64,000 nucleotides of DNA from Syntrophotalea acetylenivorans (GTDB lineage Bacteria > Desulfobacterota > Desulfuromonadia > Desulfuromonadales > Syntrophotaleaceae), in NCBI RefSeq assembly GCF_001887775.1, contig NZ_CP015519.1, positions 1,426,001 to 1,490,000 of the forward strand. The letters are read 5' to 3'. A model generated the notes under the pieces. It ran no database searches, was not told the origin of the DNA, and saw only the letters and a list, made by a program, of their open reading frames with translations. The position numbers were made by a program, and so were the translations under genes. Within the stretch, counting starts at the first letter, position 1. Each line of letters starts with the position of its first letter. Shown one piece after another: positions 2,976-21,185 of this stretch.

Positions 2976-3132
2976 CGAGTGGCTCCGCTGCTTACTCGAA
3001 CGAACTGTAAAAAAATAGAATGCCAGCCTGTAAGAATCATTCCCTGCCCCTTTCTTGCAGGCAGGCAACAAAAATTCCTGATTCCGACCCGCGGGAGGTA
3101 CCTCTTTCATGAACCGCTCAACCGACCGGTTA

Positions 3133-3480
3133 TCAGAAGGTCACCACTGTATAGCCTTGCTGCTGCAACTCACCCAAAGGAGGATGACCACTCATACCTT
3201 CCAGTAGCGGCAGATTGGCAGCCTGCACCGCCTCAAGCGCGCCGAGCTTGGCCGAGCAGGCCTTACAGGCGCCACGGATCAACCCGGCCTGGCGGGCTTT
3301 GCCGTAGAGTTGATGAAAGGCATTGTCCGGCTTTTCCAGTTCAGCCACCAGTTTAACCGACTGACCTTCGAAAATGATCGTCGCTTCCTGGCCCCGATCT
3401 ATCATATCCAGAGCGTTTAGCAGGACGTGCGCAAAACAGAGCAGTTCGCCGTTGAATACAACCAAAGCATTTTTGTTCAT
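3133..3480 (-). CDS. DsrE-like small protein
   Basis: This 115-residue soluble protein resembles DsrE/DrsE-like families: an alpha/beta fold starting with a strand (NALVVFNG), helix LCFAHVLLNALDMI, a second strand ATIIFEGQSV, and a C-terminal YTVVTF. A CKAC pair (about residues 72-75) is the usual cysteine position of sulfur-relay or redox members, but no partner Dsr/Tus genes are near. The start ATG has a strong Shine-Dalgarno sequence (AGGAGG). It lies in a leftward group with the PsiE-like and DUF4405 genes. A role in sulfur trafficking or redox is only a family-level guess. Confidence 0.7.
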   Translation of the reverse strand: MNKNALVVFNGELLCFAHVLLNALDMIDRGQEATIIFEGQSVKLVAELEKPDNAFHQLYGKARQAGLIRGACKACSAKLGALEAVQAANLPLLEGMSGHPPLGELQQQGYTVVTF

Positions 3481-5832: not shown

Positions 5833-7280
5833 ATGAGTATTCGACGTCATAGATTGGCCTTACTTTTTCCCCTCATCCTCACCCTTACCGCCTGCATCGC
5901 GGTCGGACCGGATTACGCTACGCCACAGGTGAAACTTCCTTCCTCCTGGAACGGCGCGGTTTCGGCAGTCAATACGGCAACGCAACCTGCGGAACACACC
6001 GCCCTGCACCGATGGTGGAAGGAAATGAACGACCCGTTGCTGAACGAGCTGGCAACCGAAGCGTTGGCGGCCAACCTCGACTTGGCCACCGCCAAGGCAC
6101 AACTACGAGAGGCCCGCGCGCAACGAGACATTGCCGCAGCAGAACTCGGTCCGTCGGTTGATGCATCAACCTCGGCTTCCCGCAGCCGGTCGAGCGAAGA
6201 AAGCGGTTCAGGCAATACCCGTGAATTATACAATGCCGGCTTTGATGCGAGTTGGGAAGCCGATGTCTTCGGCGGGTTGCGCCGCGGCGTTGAGGCCGCA
6301 ACAGCCGAACTCGAGGCAAACGTCGAGGTTTTGCGCGACACCCAGGTCTCTCTGGTCGCCGAGGTGGCTCTCAACTACGTAGAGCTGCGCACCGCTCAGC
6401 GCCGCCTGAAGATTGCCGAAGAACGAATAGTCTCTTTGGAAGACACCCTCCAGCTTGCCCGCTGGCGGCTGCAAGCCGGACTGGTCTCTGAACTCGATGT
6501 CACCCAGGCCCGCACCGAACTGGAAAATACACGCGCCAGCTTGCCACCCCTGCGTACATCGATAACCGAGGCCAGCAACCGGCTGGCAGTACTTCTGGGA
6601 CGCACCCCGGCGAGCTGCAGTCCCGCCTGACAGCAACGTCCAGCATTCCACTGACCGGCCGTGCGGCGCTCATCGGCATACCAGCCGACATTCTGCGCCA
6701 GCGCCCCGACGTTCGGAGCGCCGAACGCAAACTGGCGGCTCAGACCGCACGGCTGGGCGAAGCGGAGGCAGAACGATACCCGAGTTTCAAGCTTACCGGC
6801 TCCATCGGCCTGGAGGCCCTCACCCTTTCTGCACTGGGCAACGGCAGCTCGGCACTCTACTCGCTGCTCGGCTCCATTACCGCACCGATCTTCGATTCCG
6901 GACGCATCAAGGCCAACATCGAAATTCAAGACGCATTGCTCGAGCAGGCTCGGCTGAATTATCAAGCAACTGTGCTGACAGCCCTGGAAGAAGTGGAGAA
7001 CGCCTTGGTCGCAATCTCCAACAACAACGAGCGACGACAAAAACTGGCCCAAGCCGCAGACTCTGCCCGTGAAACCCTGAAGATAGCCGAGGACCGTTAC
7101 TCCAGCGGGCTGACCGACTTTCTCACCGTGCTCGACAGCCAGCGATCCCTGCTCAAAATTGAGGATGACCTGGCCAACGGCACCGGCGAACTGACCGGCG
7201 CCCAAATCCGACTCTTCAAGGCCCTTGGCGGCGGCTGGTCGCCTACCTCCCCCACGACAGATAGCGAGAATGCGTCATGA
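5833..7280 (+). pseudogene. outer membrane efflux lipoprotein (NodT/OprM type), frameshifted
   Basis: This is a TolC-family outer membrane factor, the exit duct of the tripartite pump encoded downstream. It begins with a lipoprotein signal peptide with lipobox LTAC (cysteine near residue 20), followed by two OEP repeats. The first frame stops at 6630 after LLGRTPASCSPA. The second half (ELQSRLTATSS, then IPADILRQRPDVRSAER and ITAPIFDSGR) continues in another frame to 7280. Adding one G in the run at about 6608-6611 restores RTPGELQSRL and gives a normal length of about 482 residues. Either a real one-base deletion or a sequencing error is possible. The stop overlaps the adaptor start (ATGA). 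Confidence 0.85.
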
Positions 7281-8572
7281 GCACTAAAGAATTTGCCCCT
7301 ATCGACAATGTCCGCGAAACACTCCAGAACTCCCAAAGCCGCGGTGTTCGACCCCGCCGCAGAACCGTCGCCGTTATAGCTTTCGCGGTGTTACTGCTGA
7401 TCGCGGGCTATGTATGGCTGCGCGGCAACGGCGATCCCCATAAAACCCACTACCTGAATCAAAAGGCGACCCGTGGGACCCTGGTGGTCAAGGTCACCGC
7501 CACCGGCAATCTAGAACCGACCAATCAGGTGGAGGTCGGCAGCGAGATGTCCGGCACCATCGCCACGGTTTACGTCGATGACAACGACCGAGTAACCAAG
7601 GGCCAGGCGCTGGCCGTGCTCGACCTGACCAATTTCAAAAATGCGGTGGCCCGATCGCAAGCCGCCGTCGCCGTTGCCAAAGCCAGCCTGCAACAGACCC
7701 AGGCCACTATTGAGGAAGCAGGTTCCAAGCTTGCCCGTTACCGGGAAGTCTTTCACCTGTCCGGCGGCAAGGTGCCGTCAAAGACCGAAATGGAAGCGGC
7801 CGAAGCCGAGTTTGCCCGTGCCGAAGCCAACGTAGCAAGCGCTCGGGCCAACATTGCCGAGGCCGAGGCCACCCTGAACAGCGACCAAACCGATCTCGAC
7901 AAGGCCACCATCCGCTCGCCGATCGACGGCGTGGTGCTGGAGCGGTCGGTCGACCCCGGTCAGGCGGTGGCCGCGTCGCTGCAGGCCGTAACCCTGTTTA
8001 CCCTCGCCGAAGACCTCTCCCAAATGGAACTTGAGGTGGATGTGGACGAAGCCGACGTCGGCCAGGTGAAGACCGGGCTCAAGGCCAGCTTCACCGTCGA
8101 CGCCTGGCCCGAACGAACCTTCAAGGCGACCATCACCCGCGTCGGCTTAAATGCCTCCGACGGCGACGGCGTTATCTCCTACCCCACCGTGCTGCAGGTT
8201 GCCAATGACGACCTCAGCCTGCGTCCGGGAATGACCGGCATCGCCGAAATAACCACCATCACCCGCGAGAACGCTCTGCTGGTCCCCAACGCCGCGCTGC
8301 GCTTCAGCCCCCCGGCCCAGACGGCGAACAAGACCTCCCGCAGCAGCCTGCTCGGCTCCCTGATGCCGCGCCCCCCCGGTCGCGGCCAGCAGGATAAGCC
8401 CCAGACTGCCGCCAAAGACAGCGGACAGACGGTCTGGATACTGCGCGAGGGCCAAGCCGTACCGCTGCAGGTCACCACAGGAACCAGCAACGGCCAGGTC
8501 ACCGAAATCCTCGGCGACCCGTTGCAGGAGGACATGGAAGTCATCACCGAAACAGCGAGCGCCCAATCATGA
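7277..8572 (+). CDS. efflux periplasmic adaptor subunit (MacA/RND-adaptor family)
   Basis: This membrane fusion protein of 431 residues should link the ABC permease to the outer membrane factor. An N-terminal membrane anchor (about residues 28-48) is followed by a split lipoyl domain (VEVGSEMSGTIATVYV and TIRSPIDGVVLERSVDPGQ), a long alanine-rich alpha-helical hairpin (about 118-210), a beta-barrel and a membrane-proximal domain. A proline/glutamine-rich insertion near residues 345-375 (MPRPPGRGQQDKPQ) is unusual. It overlaps the preceding gene by 4 nt and the following ATPase by 4 nt, so the operon is tightly coupled. The substrate is unknown; MacA-type systems export macrolides, peptides or lipids. 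Confidence 0.9.
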   Translation: MSTKEFAPIDNVRETLQNSQSRGVRPRRRTVAVIAFAVLLLIAGYVWLRGNGDPHKTHYLNQKATRGTLVVKVTATGNLEPTNQVEVGSEMSGTIATVYVDDNDRVTKGQALAVLDLTNFKNAVARSQAAVAVAKASLQQTQATIEEAGSKLARYREVFHLSGGKVPSKTEMEAAEAEFARAEANVASARANIAEAEATLNSDQTDLDKATIRSPIDGVVLERSVDPGQAVAASLQAVTLFTLAEDLSQMELEVDVDEADVGQVKTGLKASFTVDAWPERTFKATITRVGLNASDGDGVISYPTVLQVANDDLSLRPGMTGIAEITTITRENALLVPNAALRFSPPAQTANKTSRSSLLGSLMPRPPGRGQQDKPQTAAKDSGQTVWILREGQAVPLQVTTGTSNGQVTEILGDPLQEDMEVITETASAQS

Positions 8573-9276
8573 GCACCTATACGCCTTTGATCCAACTGTC
8601 CTGCATTACCAAGACTTACGGCCGCGGTCAGGCAGCGTTCCAGGCCCTGAAAGGGATCGACCTGACTATCGAAACGGGCGATTTCGTCGCTGTCATGGGA
8701 CCCAGCGGGTCCGGTAAATCCACCACCATGAACATCCTCGGCTGCCTCGACACTCCCAGCGGAGGAAGCTATCAATTCCAAGGACTGAACGTTGAGGGGA
8801 TGTCGCGCAACCAGCGGGCGCTGCTGCGTCGCCATTTTCTCGGTTTCGTCTTTCAGGGCTTCAACCTGCTGCCCCGCACCACCGCACTGGAGAATGTTGA
8901 GCTGCCCCTGATCTACCGCGGCGAGCCGGTTGCCGGACGCCATGCTGCGGCCCGCGCCGCTCTGGAGAAAGTGGGGCTGCAGGGTTGGGAACATCACACC
9001 CCGGCCGAACTGTCCGGCGGCCAGCAGCAGCGAGTCGCCATTGCTCGTGCCATTGCCACCTGTCCGGAGGTGTTGCTGGCTGACGAGCCCACCGGCAATC
9101 TCGACAGCCAAACCAGCCGGGAAATCATGGAACTGATCAGCAACTTCAACCGCGAGCAGGGCATCACCGTGCTCATGGTCACCCACGAGTCCGACATGGC
9201 GCACTACGCCAAACGAGTCGTCCGTTTCGTCGACGGCCGGATCGACCAGGACTTTCGCAACGGGGAGGTGGTCTGA
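8569..9276 (+). CDS. ABC transporter ATP-binding protein (MacB/LolD-like)
   Basis: This is the cytoplasmic ATPase of the efflux operon, 235 residues. It shows Walker A GPSGSGKST, Q-loop FQGFNLLPRTTALENVELPL, signature LSGGQQQRVAIARA, Walker B VLLADEPTGNLD and an H-loop in VTHESDMAHYAKR. These are typical of the MacB/LolD/FtsE group that powers mechanotransmission rather than transmembrane transport. The start ATG overlaps the adaptor stop and the stop TGA overlaps the permease ATG. In E. coli MacB the ATPase and permease are fused; here they are separate genes. Confidence 0.93.
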   Translation: MSTYTPLIQLSCITKTYGRGQAAFQALKGIDLTIETGDFVAVMGPSGSGKSTTMNILGCLDTPSGGSYQFQGLNVEGMSRNQRALLRRHFLGFVFQGFNLLPRTTALENVELPLIYRGEPVAGRHAAARAALEKVGLQGWEHHTPAELSGGQQQRVAIARAIATCPEVLLADEPTGNLDSQTSREIMELISNFNREQGITVLMVTHESDMAHYAKRVVRFVDGRIDQDFRNGEVV

Positions 9277-10478
9277 TGTGGTGGAACACCTTTCTGCTCG
9301 CCCTGCGCTCCATTCGCCGCAACTTGATGCGTTCTTTCCTGACCATCCTCGGCATCGTCATCGGTGTCGCCGCGGTTATCACCATGGTCACCCTCGGCAA
9401 CGGCGCCACCCGGTCGGTGTCCGAGCAGATCTCCAGCATGGGCAGCAACCTGCTTATGGTGATGCCGGGCCAGCGTTTCGGACCCGGCTCCGACGAGGCG
9501 GCAAAGTTCAAAAGCGCCGACGTCGAAGCCATTCGCAACCAGATCAGCGGCGTCAAGCTGGTCTCGCCGGTAGTGAACAAGTCAGCGGTCGCCGTCTACC
9601 AGGCCGACAACTGGTCCACAATGGTCTCCGGCAGCAATGGGGATTACTTCGATGTGGGAAATTGGGAGCTGGAAGCCGGCAGGGTCTTTAACGAAACGGA
9701 GCAGCGCAGCGGTAAGGCGGTGTGCGTAATCGGCGAGACGGTGCGCGAGAAGCTGTTCGGCGGTCAAAATCCGGTGGGCGCCGACATTCGCATCAAACAG
9801 TTCTCCTGCCAGGTCATCGGCCTGCTCAAATCGAAGGGCCAGTCGGCCATGGGAAGCGACCAGGACGACACGGTGGTCATGCCCCTGCGCACCGTCCAGC
9901 GCCGCCTCGCCGGCAGTCAGGACATCGGTCGCATCATGGTTTCGGTAAGCGACAGCGATTCCATCGACACGGTCACGACCCAGCTCACTCTATTGCTGAG
10001 AGAGCGACGCAACATCGACGAGAACGAAGACGACAACTTTAAGGTGATGGACACCCGGCAGCTTGCAGAAACCCTCACCAGCACCACCAAGATCCTCACC
10101 ATGCTGCTCGGTGCGGTAGCGGCGGTCAGTCTGCTGGTGGGCGGCATCGGCATCATGAACATCATGCTGGTGTCGGTGACCGAGCGAACCCGCGAGATCG
10201 GGACCCGCCTCGCTATCGGCGCACTGGAAAGGGAAGTGCTGATGCAATTCCTCATCGAGGCGGTGGTACTGTCCAGCCTCGGCGGCCTGACCGGCATCGT
10301 GCTGGCGACCGGGGCCTCCCTGTTTCTGGCCGGGCTGATGGGCATCCCCTTTCTGTTCGACCCGGGCATCAACCTTGTGGCCTTCCTGTTTTCCGCGGCC
10401 ATCGGCGTGATCTTCGGCTTTTTCCCGGCGCGCCGCGCGGCCGGCCTCAATCCCATCGATGCCCTGCGCCACGAATAG
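9276..10478 (+). CDS. ABC transporter permease (MacB type)
   Basis: This 400-residue MacB/FtsX-fold permease has one N-terminal membrane helix (FLTILGIVIGVAAVITMVTL), a periplasmic MacB core domain of about 225 residues, and three C-terminal helices. GGIGIMNIMLVSVTERTREIG is the characteristic coupling-helix region, and the protein ends with FFPARRAAGLNPIDALRHE, standard for the family. It is the last gene of the efflux operon. An inverted repeat follows it before the convergent GNAT-kinase gene. Confidence 0.93.
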   Translation: MWWNTFLLALRSIRRNLMRSFLTILGIVIGVAAVITMVTLGNGATRSVSEQISSMGSNLLMVMPGQRFGPGSDEAAKFKSADVEAIRNQISGVKLVSPVVNKSAVAVYQADNWSTMVSGSNGDYFDVGNWELEAGRVFNETEQRSGKAVCVIGETVREKLFGGQNPVGADIRIKQFSCQVIGLLKSKGQSAMGSDQDDTVVMPLRTVQRRLAGSQDIGRIMVSVSDSDSIDTVTTQLTLLLRERRNIDENEDDNFKVMDTRQLAETLTSTTKILTMLLGAVAAVSLLVGGIGIMNIMLVSVTERTREIGTRLAIGALEREVLMQFLIEAVVLSSLGGLTGIVLATGASLFLAGLMGIPFLFDPGINLVAFLFSAAIGVIFGFFPARRAAGLNPIDALRHE

Positions 10479-10542: not shown

Positions 10543-12507
10543 TCAGTCGATACAGGCCAGGCCGCTAAACTCATCGTCGGACGCGGTAATGAACTCGTCA
10601 ATTCGATCCTCCGGCAAGTTGGCCATCTCACCGAGAGTCGTGGTCTTCAGGGTATCGATCTCCCACTCGGTAGTGTTGTAGGTGGTGTGATAAAAAGACA
10701 AACACTTCTCTTCCTTCAGCCCCATCTCCAGAAATTGGCGGGCCCCCTGACGAATCAACCTCAACTTGCGACGGATGTCAGACAGTCCAACCACAGTCCA
10801 GACCCCCAACACGATGGGGCTCTCCAGGTTCTTCACATCGCCGACAAATTCACCGCGCAGTAGATCATTACGATCCACCCCCAGATAGGGGACGAAATCC
10901 ATATGCTCGGCAAGTTTGCGTTCGCTGGAGAAGAAGCGACCGCTGACAGGGTCGAGGGTAAAAATGATATGGTGCTGGATGTCCTGGCCATAGCTCTTGA
11001 ACAGCATGCCTTTGAAAGCATCAAAATCGAATTTCTTGGCCAGAAAGGTCTCGTTGCGCTTGATGCGCTTGAGGATGGTCGCCAACCAGATCTTGATAAT
11101 CTGTTGGTCGATACGGCACTTGTCCAGCTCCTGCTTGAGATACTGCCAGTTGTGCCCGCCGTAGCGGTAAAGCAAAACGGTGCGGTAGATATCGCGCACG
11201 TTGTTATAGCGGCTGAACTGGTTGATCAGGTCGTAGCTGAAGATCTCCATCTGCCGCAGCTGCCAGATAAACACCGCCACCTGAATTCGGCTGCTGCGTG
11301 CAGTCACCAACACCCGCTGAGAAATCTTGAACAACGAGATGTAGCGGGATTCGAGCACCGCCATCAGGTTGCTGCTGCTGCGGGTGCTGCGTTTCAGGGC
11401 GATGGTCCAGCGGGTAAAGCGGCCCGGTTCGCTCTCCACCACGATGTTGTTCCTGCCGAAGGAGGAGAATATCTGCCGGGTACCGAGCCCTTCCCCCTCC
11501 TTAGTGGTCTTGCCTACGAACAGCGGCAGGCCGTCCTCCCCCTTCTCCAACCGCTCCGGTTCGATGCCGAGGCCGTTGTCCTCGATGATCAGCGTCACCC
11601 CTTCCGGGTGCGGTTGCAAAATAATATCGATCAGTCCCCGCCGGCAGGCACCGGCGATGGCGTCCAGGGCATTAGAGACGATGTTGATCAGCGCCCGGCT
11701 GTAGTTGATATAGTTGCCGGCCACCTCCGGCACGTTGCCGCCCAGGGTCAGCCGAATGTCGCAAGCCACCGCCGCGGTCTCGATCACCGGAATGACCCGT
11801 TCCTGAATCAGCTCCTTGATGTCCACCTTGTGCATCTCGGAGATCTTGTCCTCGTAGACGTTCAAGGTGTTGAGCAGCGCCGTCGTCTCCCGGTTAACGT
11901 CCTCCACTACCTTATGGAAGTTATCGACGGAAATCACCCCGATCATGTCCAGCAGCACTTTAAGGGATTTGCGCGCGTCGTGACGCACCCGGCTCAGCTG
12001 CTCCGCCAGGGAAAAATCCTTGCCGCGCAGCCGGGTCATGCGCTCGGCAATAGTCTGCGCCTGCCCCGCCAGCAGAGAAAAAGTCATCTTGCGATAGACG
12101 GTGCTCTCTTCATACTTAAAAGCCCGCGCGGTGTAAAAGGACACCACGCTGCCGAGCTTTTCCCATACATAAAGGTAGATGGTGCTCTCGGGGGGCACCT
12201 CTCGGGCCAGCTTTTCGACAAAGGCCGAACCGATACCCTTGCCCCGACCAAAAGGACTGGTCACCTGAGTATAGATGTGAAAGCGAGTCTGCTTTTTATT
12301 GGAATAGACTACCATGTAGCCGAGAATCTCCCCCTCCTCGTCCCACACGTAGCTGTGCCGGTAATCCTTGTCGATCTTCTTGTCCTTGACGTAGGGCGAC
12401 GGGATCAGCACCGTATCGATGTTCAGAAACGGAATCTTGCGGATGCGCTGCTCGTCCTCCGGAGTCAAACCGCGGATATAGGGAAATTCAGGTTTTTCTT
12501 CAGCCAT
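10543..12507 (-). CDS. GNAT acetyltransferase-histidine kinase fusion
   Basis: This is a soluble 654-residue multidomain protein with no membrane helix. Residues 1-~145 form a GNAT fold; the acetyl-CoA motif is SPFGRGKGIGSAF (about 84-96). Residues ~165-230 form a dimerisation/phosphoacceptor segment with RHDARKSL (His near 176), resembling Spo0B-type H boxes. Residues ~265-375 are a HATPase with N box INIVSNALDAI, G1 DNGLGI and G2 EGEGLGTRQIF. The last ~270 residues are a helix-rich region I do not recognise. The ATG at 12507 is preferred over an upstream TTG (12531) because of the AAAGG site. No response regulator is adjacent. Whether the GNAT part is catalytic or a sensor is unknown. Confidence 0.8.
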   Translation of the reverse strand: MAEEKPEFPYIRGLTPEDEQRIRKIPFLNIDTVLIPSPYVKDKKIDKDYRHSYVWDEEGEILGYMVVYSNKKQTRFHIYTQVTSPFGRGKGIGSAFVEKLAREVPPESTIYLYVWEKLGSVVSFYTARAFKYEESTVYRKMTFSLLAGQAQTIAERMTRLRGKDFSLAEQLSRVRHDARKSLKVLLDMIGVISVDNFHKVVEDVNRETTALLNTLNVYEDKISEMHKVDIKELIQERVIPVIETAAVACDIRLTLGGNVPEVAGNYINYSRALINIVSNALDAIAGACRRGLIDIILQPHPEGVTLIIEDNGLGIEPERLEKGEDGLPLFVGKTTKEGEGLGTRQIFSSFGRNNIVVESEPGRFTRWTIALKRSTRSSSNLMAVLESRYISLFKISQRVLVTARSSRIQVAVFIWQLRQMEIFSYDLINQFSRYNNVRDIYRTVLLYRYGGHNWQYLKQELDKCRIDQQIIKIWLATILKRIKRNETFLAKKFDFDAFKGMLFKSYGQDIQHHIIFTLDPVSGRFFSSERKLAEHMDFVPYLGVDRNDLLRGEFVGDVKNLESPIVLGVWTVVGLSDIRRKLRLIRQGARQFLEMGLKEEKCLSFYHTTYNTTEWEIDTLKTTTLGEMANLPEDRIDEFITASDDEFSGLACID

Positions 12508-12892
12508 GATGCGGATTCGCCTTTCTTTCAAAAACTTCCGTAACTCACCAAATAAACAGTCGGATTCATTATAGTTGGTATCAAAATATTGTAACGCGGA
12601 TGTTGCTTAATTGCACTCTTTGCTTCACGTAGAAGCTGCAGCTGACCACAGTGGACAGCATTATTTTTCAGTTTGACAATCCATTTAAGCCAGACAAAGA
12701 TGATTTTTTATTTAATTGGCCCACAACTATCTAACTGCTTTTGCAGGTAAGCTGAAACGATAACAATAGCCAGGCGACATGCATGATATACATAAAACAG
12801 AGAGGCATTTAAGAACACCTCGGCGGTGGCATTGCAGCTGCCTCTTTGTTCGGTATTTATCACGGAGTTAACCCAAAAAGGAGAGACACCAC
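12508..12892. other. 385-bp divergent intergenic region
   Basis: The region lies between the divergent GNAT-kinase and VOC genes and has no coding content. It holds the minus-strand promoter listed separately. Near the VOC gene, AGAGGCA and TGCCTCT (about 12801-12847) are complementary and could pair across about 33 nt. I could not match this to a known riboswitch. Confidence 0.5.
12568..12595 (-). promoter_or_regulatory. putative sigma-70 promoter of the GNAT-kinase gene
   Basis: Read on the minus strand, GTTACA, a 16-bp spacer and a consensus TATAAT lie about 60 nt upstream of the ATG at 12507. Confidence 0.5.
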
Positions 12893-13309
12893 ATGCAACC
12901 CCGCATCAGCATGATCACTCTGGGAGTTCGAGAGCTCGCCGCATCGGTGAAGTTCTATGAAGAAGGGCTGGGCTTCCCGCGCATGGACTCTCCTCCCGAG
13001 GTGGCCTTTTTCACTCTCAACGGCACTTGGCTGGGATTGTACGGCCGGGACGCGCTGGCAGAAGACGCCACGGTATCGGCTGAAGGTTCGGGCTTTGCCG
13101 CTGTCTCATTGGCTCATAATGTCCCGTCGGAAGAGGAAGTAGACGAAGTGATGAATCAGGCCCTTGCGGCTGGTGCGACGCTGGTCAAGCAACCACAGAA
13201 GGTATTCTGGGGCGGCTACAGCGGCTACTTCAAGGACCCCGACGGCCACCTGTGGGAGATCGCCCACAACCCCCACTTTTGGGTGGGTCCGGTTGACGAG
13301 GACAATTGA
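12893..13309 (+). CDS. VOC-family (glyoxalase/bleomycin-resistance fold) protein
   Basis: This 138-residue single-domain vicinal-oxygen-chelate protein starts with RISMITLGVRELAASVKFYEEGLGF and ends with GYSGYFKDPDGHLWEIAHNP, the two halves of the paired beta-alpha-beta-beta-beta fold. The DPDGHLWEIA motif contains the usual metal-ligand glutamate. The start is well supported by AAAAGGAGAG. Members include glyoxalase I, antibiotic-binding and dioxygenase proteins; the sequence alone does not identify the substrate. It is a single gene, followed by about 240 bp without genes. Confidence 0.85.
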   Translation: MQPRISMITLGVRELAASVKFYEEGLGFPRMDSPPEVAFFTLNGTWLGLYGRDALAEDATVSAEGSGFAAVSLAHNVPSEEEVDEVMNQALAAGATLVKQPQKVFWGGYSGYFKDPDGHLWEIAHNPHFWVGPVDEDN

Positions 13310-18074: not shown

Positions 18075-18770
18075 CTAGCCCCCCAACAGATAACCAACCC
18101 CCCGCACAGTCTTCAACATCTGAGGTTTTCGGGAAGGATCTCCCAACTTCTGGCGAATGCGTGAAATGTAGATGTCTACCGAGCGGTCATAACCGTTGTA
18201 TTGTACTCCGAGCAAATCTTCGTAAATCTTGTCGCGGCTGACCACCGCCCGGGCATTACAGGCCAAGTACCAGAGGAGATCGAATTCCCTGGAAGTCAGA
18301 TCAATAGACTGGCCTTCGACCCGGACTTCCCGCCGGCCCCCATCCACCTCCAGCGCTCCGAGGTTGAGGGTCCTTACCGGGGCGGCGAACGACCGCCTGC
18401 CGCGGCGCAGCAGGGCACGGATTTTTGCCACCAGCAGAGCGGGGCTTATCGGTTTGACAATAAAATCGTCTGCCCCCATTTCCAGGCCCAACACCTGATG
18501 CATTTCATCAACACAGTCAGCCATAACCAGCAACGGACCGGCATAGGTTTCCCTGATAGTCCTACAGACCGCGAGACGCTGAAGCGAGGGCAACGTGAGG
18601 TCAACCAGAATCAGTTCCGAGTTTTCTTCTGGAGTGGACGCTCCTTCAAGAGCCTCAGCCTTCAGCAGACAAACAGCAAAGCCTTCCCCCTCCAGACAAC
18701 CTACCAGGGGAGCAGCCAAACTACTGTCTTCGGATATCAATAAAATCGGACATTCTTTTTCCATAAGCAT
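18075..18770 (-). CDS. OmpR/PhoB-family response regulator (orphan)
   Basis: This DNA-binding response regulator of about 231 residues has a receiver domain with a single acidic pocket residue region SEDS, phosphoacceptor Asp in LVDLTLPS and Lys in IVKPISP, then a winged helix (LTSREFDLLWYLA, recognition region YNGYDRSVDIYISRIRQKL, end VRGVGYLLGG). No histidine kinase is adjacent on this strand; the Bae-like pair 1 kb away has its own regulator. The start is uncertain between ATG 18770 and 18764; the former has AGAAAG at suitable spacing. The regulon is unknown. Confidence 0.88.
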   Translation of the reverse strand: MLMEKECPILLISEDSSLAAPLVGCLEGEGFAVCLLKAEALEGASTPEENSELILVDLTLPSLQRLAVCRTIRETYAGPLLVMADCVDEMHQVLGLEMGADDFIVKPISPALLVAKIRALLRRGRRSFAAPVRTLNLGALEVDGGRREVRVEGQSIDLTSREFDLLWYLACNARAVVSRDKIYEDLLGVQYNGYDRSVDIYISRIRQKLGDPSRKPQMLKTVRGVGYLLGG

Positions 18771-18912
18771 ATACTGAACTTTCTGGTATTCAGCCTGCAA
18801 ATTGGTGTGGTGTAAGTGAAGCCCAGCCTTTTCCGGCCATCGGTCCCTTTACCAAAAACTTGTTGCATTTTTGTAACGGGCCAGAGACTTCGAAGCGTTG
18901 CCCCTATGTTTT

Positions 18913-19464
18913 CTAGTTTCCAGATTCCTGCATGTCAAAACGGGGTCCAAACCCTTCTGAACCATCGGGGCCTCCGCGACGCTTTTGGGGATGCGGACCC
19001 CGCAGTTTTTTCAACTTGTAAGCCAGGTCTGCCAGTTCCTGTTGTTCGGGTGTCAAGAGAGCATAAACCTGACTGCGGGTCCGGGCACGGCCGACCATCA
19101 GTTCGGCGTGTAACTGAGCCTTCTCGGCTGCCAGCTTACGCAAGACCTTTTCATCAAAGTTTTTGGGATTGCTCGCCAGGCGTAATTCCCGGTCGGTTTC
19201 TTTTATCTCGGCATGAACTTTTTCAGCCTGCTCACGGTTGGCCTCAAATAACTTTTTAGCCTCCTGGCGTTGCTCCTTACTCAGGTCGAAACTCTCGGCC
19301 AGGCGCTCCCAGTGACCACGCCTGGCGTCCATCCGACAGGGACCATTATCCGGGCTCGTCGCATCCGCCTTGCCGTCACGCTCCCAGGGGACCGCCAGGG
19401 CCGTCAAACTACCTCCCATTACCAGAACGCCGCACAGCACCATCAACCAGATTTTCTTTTTCAT
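18913..19464 (-). CDS. Spy/CpxP-like periplasmic protein (LTXXQ family)
   Basis: This 183-residue exported protein has a signal peptide (KKKIWLMVLCGVLVMGG) ending near ALA, followed by an all-helical periplasmic domain with LSKEQRQEAKKLFEANR and LTPEQQELADLAYKL, the two LTXXQ-type motifs of Spy/CpxP. E. coli Spy is an ATP-independent periplasmic chaperone induced by Bae and Cpx. Here the gene is divergent from a BaeS/BaeR-like pair, so regulation by that pair, and possibly feedback on the sensor as CpxP does, is a reasonable inference. The C-terminus is basic and glycine-rich. The start ATG is supported by AAGGAG 7 nt upstream. Confidence 0.85.
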   Translation of the reverse strand: MKKKIWLMVLCGVLVMGGSLTALAVPWERDGKADATSPDNGPCRMDARRGHWERLAESFDLSKEQRQEAKKLFEANREQAEKVHAEIKETDRELRLASNPKNFDEKVLRKLAAEKAQLHAELMVGRARTRSQVYALLTPEQQELADLAYKLKKLRGPHPQKRRGGPDGSEGFGPRFDMQESGN

Positions 19465-19730
19465 CTTTAATCTCCTTGTCGTTACGGGCAGCCAATCCAT
19501 GCACCAGCCCTTTGCTTGGCTTGTTGTCTATCAATCGGACCGGATAACAACCCCAGCGGAATACCATCTGCTTCCCTGCCGACAGCACTATGAATAGCGA
19601 ACGAATTTGCAGCAAATATGGAAGAAGTGTGAAAATAAGCCGTGATCAGACGAGATGGCTGGTATTGGCGTCCCGGAATGTGCTAGTAGAACGTATATAG
19701 CTTGCGAATCAGGAGCATTCAGAGAAAACG

Positions 19731-21185
19731 ATGAAAATCAGCATCAAATACCGACTTTTCCTGGCTTTCCTTGTCGCGACTCTTACTTTGGTGGCCAGCA
19801 TGTTTCTGGTCACCAAGTTGAGTTTTGACCGGGGCTTTTTGCGCTATATCAACAACGTTGAACAGCAGCGTATCGAACAACTGGCCAGCGAACTGGAACA
19901 GTCCTTTGCCGAAAACGGCAGCTGGGACTTTCTTCGCTACAACCCGCGAGCGTGGCGCCGGCTTATATTTGCCGCCAAGCCGGAAATCAATCTGGAACCT
20001 CCGCCTTTCGATAAACCGGTGAATCCCGCCGGCAGGTTCCCTGAAAGGGGTCCCATGCCGCCCCCTCCGCCTGTTTCCAGTAATCATTTTGAACGTCGCG
20101 TATTACTGCTGGATGCTGAGCAGAAGCGAATTTTCGGTCCGCGGCGCTATTCAGCAGACCTTGAACTGCTTTCCCTCAACGCCCAGGGAAATACGGTTGG
20201 CTATCTGGCGATCGTGCCGCCCCGGGCTCCGCGGGACCTTATCGATCCGCATCAGCAGCAGTTCTTTAAAAAACAACGCCGCTCATTCGCCATCATCGCC
20301 ATCGCTATGGCGGGGGCCGCTGCGCTGCTCTCAGTTCCCCTCTCCCGACGCCTGGTACGACGTATCACCGATCTGGCCGCTGCCACGCATCTGCTGACCG
20401 CCGGGCAGTACCAAACCCGGGTTCAGGCGACCGCCTCCGATGAACTCGGTCAACTGGCGCGGGACTTCAACAGCCTGGCCCTAACCCTGGAGAACAACGA
20501 GCAACTGCGACGACAATGGGTAGCCGACATCTCCCACGAATTGCGCACCCCCCTGGCAGTGCTTCGAGGTGAAATCGAAGCGCTGCAGGACGGCGTGCGA
20601 CCGCAAACTCCTCAGTCCATGTCTATGCTGCACGGCGAGGTCATGCACCTGAGTCGCCTGGTGGAAGACCTCTACCAGCTGGCCTTAGCCGACATCGACG
20701 CCCTCAGCTGCCGAAAAGAGCCGATCGACCTAAGCGAAATCCTGCAACAAACCGCCGATTCTTTTCGTGGAGAACTGGTCGCGCACGATGTGCGACTGAC
20801 CTGCGAATTTCCTGCAGGCAAAACCGTGTCCATGCTCGGTGACGACCGGCGCCTTCGCCAACTGTTCAGCAATCTGCTGGAAAACAGCCTGCGCTATACA
20901 GATAAAGGGGGAGAATTGCGCATAAGGATGACAACCGATGGACAACGGGCCGTCATCCATTTCGAAGATACCGCACCGGGCGTGGCGGAAGAAAAGCTGG
21001 AGCGGCTGTTCGACCGCCTCTACCGGGTCGAAAGCTCGCGCAGTCGAAACACCGGAGGAGCCGGCCTAGGCCTGGCTCTATGCAAAACCATCGTCGAGTC
21101 TCATGACGGAACCATCATCGCACGGCCTTCATCACTGGGCGGTCTGCGAATTGAAATCGACCTGCCGTTAAAGGGAATAACATGA
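19731..21185 (+). CDS. baeS: BaeS-like sensor histidine kinase
   Basis: This membrane-bound sensor kinase of 484 residues detects envelope stress. It has TM1 (about 8-28), a periplasmic domain with a proline-rich stretch (MPPPPPVSSN) and TM2 (about 181-205). HAMP, HisKA with SHELRTPLAVLRGE (His near 269) and HATPase with LFSNLLENSLRYTD, DTAPGV and GGAGLGLALC follow. The catalytic half closely matches E. coli BaeS from memory (LRGE..EALQDGV, VEDLYQLALADIDAL). The stop overlaps baeR by 4 nt. The divergent Spy-like gene supports a Bae-type role; the stimulus is unknown. Confidence 0.88.
   Translation: MKISIKYRLFLAFLVATLTLVASMFLVTKLSFDRGFLRYINNVEQQRIEQLASELEQSFAENGSWDFLRYNPRAWRRLIFAAKPEINLEPPPFDKPVNPAGRFPERGPMPPPPPVSSNHFERRVLLLDAEQKRIFGPRRYSADLELLSLNAQGNTVGYLAIVPPRAPRDLIDPHQQQFFKKQRRSFAIIAIAMAGAAALLSVPLSRRLVRRITDLAAATHLLTAGQYQTRVQATASDELGQLARDFNSLALTLENNEQLRRQWVADISHELRTPLAVLRGEIEALQDGVRPQTPQSMSMLHGEVMHLSRLVEDLYQLALADIDALSCRKEPIDLSEILQQTADSFRGELVAHDVRLTCEFPAGKTVSMLGDDRRLRQLFSNLLENSLRYTDKGGELRIRMTTDGQRAVIHFEDTAPGVAEEKLERLFDRLYRVESSRSRNTGGAGLGLALCKTIVESHDGTIIARPSSLGGLRIEIDLPLKGIT

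Follow-up and report, generated by a model that had tools for sequence, protein, structure and literature searches.

A Syntrophotalea acetylenivorans gene that joins a GNAT domain, a histidine kinase and a family-specific C-terminal region: a possible acyl-CoA-responsive kinase

What would a protein do that carries an acetyltransferase fold, a histidine kinase and a further conserved region in a single chain? The question is raised by a gene in a 64,000-nucleotide stretch of the Syntrophotalea acetylenivorans genome (NZ_CP015519.1, positions 1,426,001 to 1,490,000), referred to below as the window. Acetyl-CoA stands at the centre of metabolism in Desulfuromonadales that oxidise acetate and in their relatives. 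If the reading favoured below is correct, a GNAT domain has been reused as a sensor, and a kinase that reads acetyl-CoA through this fold would tie central metabolism directly to two-component signalling.

Domain order of the GNAT-kinase protein

The gene is read from the minus strand, with an ATG at 12507, a last codon that ends at 10546 and a stop at 10543-10545; an in-frame TTG lies upstream of the ATG, at 12531. In the given frame the plus strand of 10543-12507 contains a stop and is not open. The GNAT-kinase is not a chance frame, since its C-terminal part is encoded in 51 of the 277 genomes of the window's taxonomic class, at 50-100% identity. Besides the full-length copy (Table 1), the genome of S. 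acetylenivorans gave five other matches at 25-32% identity, which cover kinase residues, and of the ten Acetyltransf_1 matches listed from this genome none but the GNAT-kinase lies in a frame of more than 300 aa.

Table 1. Features of the GNAT-kinase gene and protein, in window coordinates
Feature	Position	Strand	Remarks
GNAT - DHp - HATPase - C-terminal region, whole gene	10543..12507	-	654 aa; one full-length copy in genome
N-terminal GNAT domain, residues 1-149	12061..12507	-	Pfam match 46-125
P-loop R88-x-x-G91-x-G93	12229-12246	-	inside GNAT domain
Helical linker and dimerisation/phosphotransfer helices (predicted), residues 150-225	11833..12060	-	RHD motif, H176
HATPase_c catalytic domain, residues 226-375	11383..11832	-	N275/N279; G1 D310-N-G-x-G314; G2 G338-E-G-x-G342
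C-terminal region, first half, residues 376-510	10978..11382	-	predicted helical
C-terminal region, second half, residues 511-654	10546..10977	-	predicted alpha/beta; conserved AEHxDF and RGExxGD motifs

A preliminary description, made from the sequence alone, had proposed that a GNAT domain, a histidine kinase and an unassigned C-terminal region share one chain, and both Pfam searches and motifs bear this out. Acetyltransf_1 (E 2.5e-7) and HATPase_c (residues 270-373, E 2.1e-9) were matched above cut-off in the window protein, in which Pfam found nothing past residue 373 at E up to 1, and the two domains were matched in 8 of 8 family members scanned. The motifs fall where they had first been placed: RGKGIGSAF at residues 88-96, RHDARKSL at 175-182, the N box at about 275-279, DNGLGI at 310-315 and GEGLG at 338-342.

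The P-loop consensus of GNAT proteins is given as Q/R-x-x-G-x-G/A in the available excerpt of PMC4964394, and such a loop, together with the Acetyltransf_1 match, places the N-terminal domain in the GNAT superfamily. Its best NCBIfam profiles are PRK10562 and RimI, and among PDB sequences it matches Naa60 (5icv, E 0.004). The HATPase_c match and the N, G1 and G2 boxes similarly mark the protein as a probable histidine kinase; solved relatives of residues 151-377 are sensor histidine kinases (4jas, 3dge and KinB, 3d36), and the best NCBIfam profile of the protein is AtoS (NF008468), at 50.5 bits against a cut-off of 646. HisKA was not matched by Pfam in the window protein. The phosphoacceptor His of the invariant RHD motif appears to sit on a two-helix dimerisation and phosphotransfer (DHp) element, with helices predicted at 167-190 and 194-224 at low pLDDT (low confidence over 162-225), and the full-length model, for which 8 sequences were the input, was poor (pLDDT 57.6, pTM 0.33). 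In the window protein and the 8 members Pfam matched neither Response_reg nor Hpt at E up to 1, and the protein does not appear to be a hybrid histidine kinase with a C-terminal receiver (REC) or HPt domain.

For the C-terminal region (residues ~376-654) the preliminary description had suggested profile searches and structure prediction; these yielded a two-half model and did not find a known family or fold. Pfam gave no match to the region in the window protein and 8 members. Four weak PHROGs matches of single members (best E 0.026) and one match of the C-terminal profile to PDB sequences (E 0.73) were not usable, and a comparison with the family's own kinase part gave nothing usable. The model of residues 378-654 (pLDDT 72, pTM 0.64) consists of a helical half and an alpha/beta half, and Foldseek returned no match to it at E 0.001 or better. 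Stay-Green (SGR, 7y5y) was matched weakly by Foldseek (E 0.084) and was aligned to residues 499-630 by VIA-align (Z 6.8, rmsd 3.8, 119 aligned), which is below that tool's trustworthy level; other VIA-align rows were gelsolin and cofilin-like, at Z of about 5 or less. These similarities may reflect a common arrangement only. PF12638 (SGR) matched 0 of 345 genomes in a search in which no control matched either. The region is probably a conserved domain found in the GNAT-kinase family alone, and the searches run found no relative of it.

Conservation and inheritance in the class

Conservation was counted over 46 aligned full-length members, with six partial or odd rows excluded. The core of the CoA loop (K90, G91, I92 and G93) is identical in all 46, as are R175, H176, D177, N275, N279, D310, N311, G312, G314, G338, G340 and G342; the GNAT loop and His176, whose conservation in homologues the preliminary description had set as a test, are thus both kept throughout. 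The P-loop consensus R-x-x-G-x-G is matched exactly, with Arg at residue 88 in 44 members and Lys in 2. Within the G2 box residue 339 varies, with Glu in 33 members, Lys in 11 and Thr in 2. Such retention of kinase residues in 46 of 46 is as would be expected of an active kinase.

Two positions of the GNAT domain have a bearing on catalysis. Residue 125 is Phe in 45 of the 46 and Tyr in the window protein alone; 45 members have Leu at residue 118 and the remaining one has Ile. We take 125 to be the usual place of the GNAT general-acid Tyr and 118 that of the canonical Asn, from the general GNAT motif and from the alignment with Naa60 (PDB 5icv, E 0.004). The N-terminal stretch of a GNAT domain usually shapes the acceptor site, and in this family that stretch (LNID..IPSP) is strongly conserved. 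According to the available excerpt of PMC4964394 the conserved Tyr general acid is present in 62% of characterised GNATs, so that many GNATs do without it and a Tyr at 125, common rather than universal, does not decide membership. Its loss in 45 of 46 members leans towards a non-catalytic domain, with the window protein keeping the Tyr.

The mean majority fraction is 0.77 for the GNAT domain, 0.76 for the linker and DHp helices and 0.73 for the HATPase, and in the C-terminal region it is 0.71 for the first half and 0.73 for the second (0.58 over the last 30 residues). By this measure the C-terminal region seems to be conserved about as much as the other parts of the protein, and it holds invariant polar residues, for example R530, E534, H535, D537, R551, E553 and D557.

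GNAT domain and C-terminal region are inherited together in one chain. The family GNAT profile matched 51 of the 277 class genomes at E 1e-4, the same number as hold the C-terminal part (in 2 of the latter an extra short match is a fragment), and of 53 genomes with one part or the other, 49 have both. One discordant genome, G001, carries the GNAT domain and a piece of the kinase at the end of a contig, with no C-terminal match; a second, G506, carries the C-terminal end and part of the HATPase, also at a contig end. The third, G014, is rated 100% complete, and its copy is judged to be decayed because a 75-aa N-terminal remnant sits inside a 207-kb contig (L114, about 3030-3200); the gene has probably been lost there by decay. 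The fourth, G533, has a TIR domain instead of the GNAT domain. As the four amount to contig ends, a remnant and a TIR fusion, neither module was seen as a clear intact stand-alone gene among the 277 genomes.

In G533 (L089:8348-9862) the C-terminal part, from mid-HATPase onwards, follows a TIR domain (TIR_2, E 3.8e-20; PADLOC models PDC-S66 and ThsB) in the same reading frame. The family part of this protein is 70-78% identical to relatives in its genus, and a search of the genome for the other, GNAT end found none. The fusion may be genuine, or the draft genome may be misassembled at this place.

Within the window's own genus, one genome (G004, 99% complete) has neither the GNAT nor the C-terminal part. 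In a tree of the 46 members the family label changes 9 times, against a least possible 6 and a mean of 29.5 after shuffling, and members of the window's family cluster with part of another family; transfers within the class, besides losses, are therefore likely. Samples of the phylum gave 2 positives in 297 genomes with a single-protein query and 2 in 395 with the C-terminal profile, in each case the genome of S. acetylenivorans itself and G082, a member of its class. A pattern scan of 84,980 species, which reaches close relatives only and is compatible with a wider occurrence, found 9 loci titled Desulfuromonadales, Desulfuromonadaceae, Geobacteraceae, Pelobacter or Desulfuromonas. Some weaker matches elsewhere begin within the GNAT domain, at about residue 106. 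Of six such loci retrieved, five were read by eye (L030-L034, two of them starting near 103-106) and resemble ordinary histidine kinases that lack a GNAT domain; the sixth, L029, gave no match.

Genes around the GNAT-kinase

The window gene is flanked by a convergent MacB-type permease gene (9276-10478) and a divergent glyoxalase-like gene (12893-13309), both read from the sequence. No response regulator adjoins it, in agreement with the preliminary description; the nearest one seen in the window, again read from the sequence, is at 18075-18800. It is of OmpR type and, with a Spy/CpxP-like gene and a membrane histidine kinase (18075-21185), likely forms an envelope stress system. At 5833-7280 the outer-membrane-factor gene of a MacAB-type efflux operon is split over two frames near 6591-6630, and is therefore a broken gene or the result of a sequencing error.

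Across 47 loci no stable response-regulator partner was found. A REC gene lies within two ORFs of the GNAT-kinase at 8 of the 47, and the frequency of REC genes at this distance (9 of 168) is not significantly above that further out (12 of 402; p = 0.22). In six relatives, all of one genus, a citrate synthase gene lies 85-224 bp upstream on the same strand (identified by Pfam in one of the six and by clustering in the others); three relatives have a rubrerythrin gene upstream (Pfam in one, clustering in the others), and two have hybrid kinases directly upstream. Two loci from different families (L077:5635-9979 and L102:3641-8031) share a pair of upstream genes, co-oriented with the GNAT-kinase, that encode HDOD-HATPase and REC-PAS-GGDEF-EAL proteins; the pair hints at a connection with c-di-GMP in these lineages. 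The neighbouring signalling genes were named from Pfam matches.

In five members, all of one family, nif genes occur within three ORFs: a nifD search placed nifD about 1.7-3.2 kb from the GNAT-kinase at L064, L065 and L066, and at L070 and L071 genes read by eye as nifEN are within two ORFs. At L070 a REC-ANTAR regulator gene (8214-8813) also lies convergently beside the GNAT-kinase, near the nifEN gene. Nitrogen fixation was considered as the function and dropped, because nifD is found nearly throughout the class (217 of 277 genomes: 46 of the 51 holders of the GNAT-kinase and 171 of the 226 others) and five holders have no nifD match.

A few neighbours match defence-type models (AbiEii, PDC-S24, SoFic and others), each model in one protein. 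The immediate neighbours gave 7 PADLOC model-protein matches in 74 proteins and a control set 11 in 73, and are thus not enriched; the window protein itself matched 0 PADLOC families at E 0.01. The C-terminal part as query found no relative in phages, and the C-terminal profile gave 41 pattern matches in viral contigs, of which 0 were confirmed. With the whole protein as query plasmids gave no relative, in a search that was not very sensitive, as no other kinase was matched either.

Candidate functions and known systems

The reading that we favour, with somewhat less than even confidence, is a cytosolic sensor histidine kinase with acyl-CoA input through a GNAT-fold sensor. It seems the likeliest because a conserved CoA loop is always paired with a conserved kinase and the usual GNAT acid is lost in nearly all members. 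The input would be an acyl-CoA bound at the GNAT P-loop, in the simplest case acetyl-CoA or the acetyl-CoA/CoA ratio; binding would reorient the helix connecting the GNAT domain to the phosphotransfer helices and in this way start or stop ATP-dependent phosphorylation of His176. From there the phosphoryl group would pass to a response regulator encoded elsewhere, and residues 376-654 would form a second, family-specific module for further input or output. We infer the ligand, the direction of the signal, the partner and the role of the C-terminal region. Phe at 125 with Leu or Ile at 118 would fit binding without catalysis, and citrate synthase, an acetyl-CoA enzyme, encoded upstream in six relatives may also count in favour, within one clade only; its limitation to one genus is equally a point against. 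Also against an acyl-CoA sensor, catalysis may persist, with Tyr at 125 in the window protein and many GNATs lacking that Tyr, no response-regulator partner is conserved (p = 0.22), and a plain sensor kinase does not account for the C-terminal region, which is conserved about as much as the other parts.

The main rival, which we consider unlikely, makes the GNAT domain the output: a kinase-like ATPase module would switch it by ATP binding or His phosphorylation, and the C-terminal region would be the sensor. This would suit the fully conserved core of the CoA loop, the strong conservation of LNID..IPSP, the Tyr retained at 125 in the window protein and the absence of a fixed response regulator; however, Phe replaces the usual general-acid Tyr in 45 of 46 members, the canonical Asn is gone, and the full phosphoacceptor motif in 46 of 46 goes beyond the needs of an ATP switch. 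The available excerpt of PMC8556138 cuts both ways, since fused regulatory domains control known bacterial GNATs (types I-III) and none of its five GNAT types includes a histidine kinase fusion; a search of its available text for the term histidine kinase gave 0 hits. Of the alternatives in the preliminary description, acetyl-CoA sensing and kinase-regulated acetylation, either may hold; Phe125 in 45 of 46 leans to sensing, and the window protein has Tyr.

Improbable as well is a pathway contained in one protein, in which the GNAT domain (acyl-CoA) and the kinase would act in cis on the C-terminal region, an enzyme or binding module that would serve as output, as the preliminary description had suggested it may, and make a response regulator unnecessary. 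The confinement of this region to the family and its presence in all 46 full-length members, its many invariant polar residues and the lack of a stable partner gene are what such an arrangement would predict, but receivers are the usual route by which histidine kinases act, a REC gene lies within two ORFs at 8 of the 47 loci, and no activity can be named for the region because a known fold or family was not found. Slightly less probable again is the specific form in which one chain would lead from metabolite to output without a response regulator, by way of a GNAT sensor that binds acyl-CoA, the histidine kinase and a C-terminal effector of undescribed fold. A role in stress response or anti-phage defence, as the product of a mobile single gene, is very improbable: the patchy distribution (51 of 277, with absence from the nearly complete G004), the changing neighbourhoods, the disagreement between gene tree and taxonomy (9 label changes, where the least possible is 6), the one fusion to a TIR domain resembling those of defence proteins and the scattered AbiEii, PDC-S24, SoFic and other models next to it would fit, but the window protein has no PADLOC match at E 0.01, the neighbour matches are not above control (7 in 74 against 11 in 73), and plasmids, phages and viral contigs gave no relative.

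The possibility that the family had already been characterised, named in the preliminary description, found no sign in the literature, Pfam, NCBIfam or PDB sequences; the literature consisted of open-licence papers, in which the lack of any description of a GNAT-histidine kinase fusion is a weak absence. GnfR is a REC-ANTAR-type regulator, and one relative (L070) resembles the GnfK/GnfR pair in the regulator gene convergent with its GNAT-kinase gene. GnfK and GnfR are nif regulators of Geobacter sulfurreducens (available excerpt of PMC7962754), whereas nif adjacency is confined to few relatives of the GNAT-kinase and no nif gene lies beside the window gene.

The N-terminal domain is like GNAT acetyltransferases in its R-x-x-G-x-G P-loop and Acetyltransf_1 match, and unlike them in the Phe that takes the place of the general-acid Tyr in 45 of 46, the loss of the canonical Asn and the fused kinase. 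As far as the available excerpt of PMC8556138 goes, bacterial GNATs are sorted into five domain types, none with a kinase, and types I-III carry acyl-CoA synthetase-like, cAMP, ACT and NADP regulatory domains; the GNAT-kinase shares with types I-III the combination of a GNAT domain and a regulatory module in one chain, and differs from all five in that the module is a complete histidine kinase. Compared with sensor histidine kinases, it has no Pfam match to PAS, GAF or HAMP and a GNAT domain in the place of the sensor, and its HATPase is followed by about 280 residues that Pfam matches to neither receiver nor HPt; with those built on HATPase_c cores it has in common the RHD phosphoacceptor, the N, G1 and G2 boxes and the order of phosphoacceptor and then HATPase.
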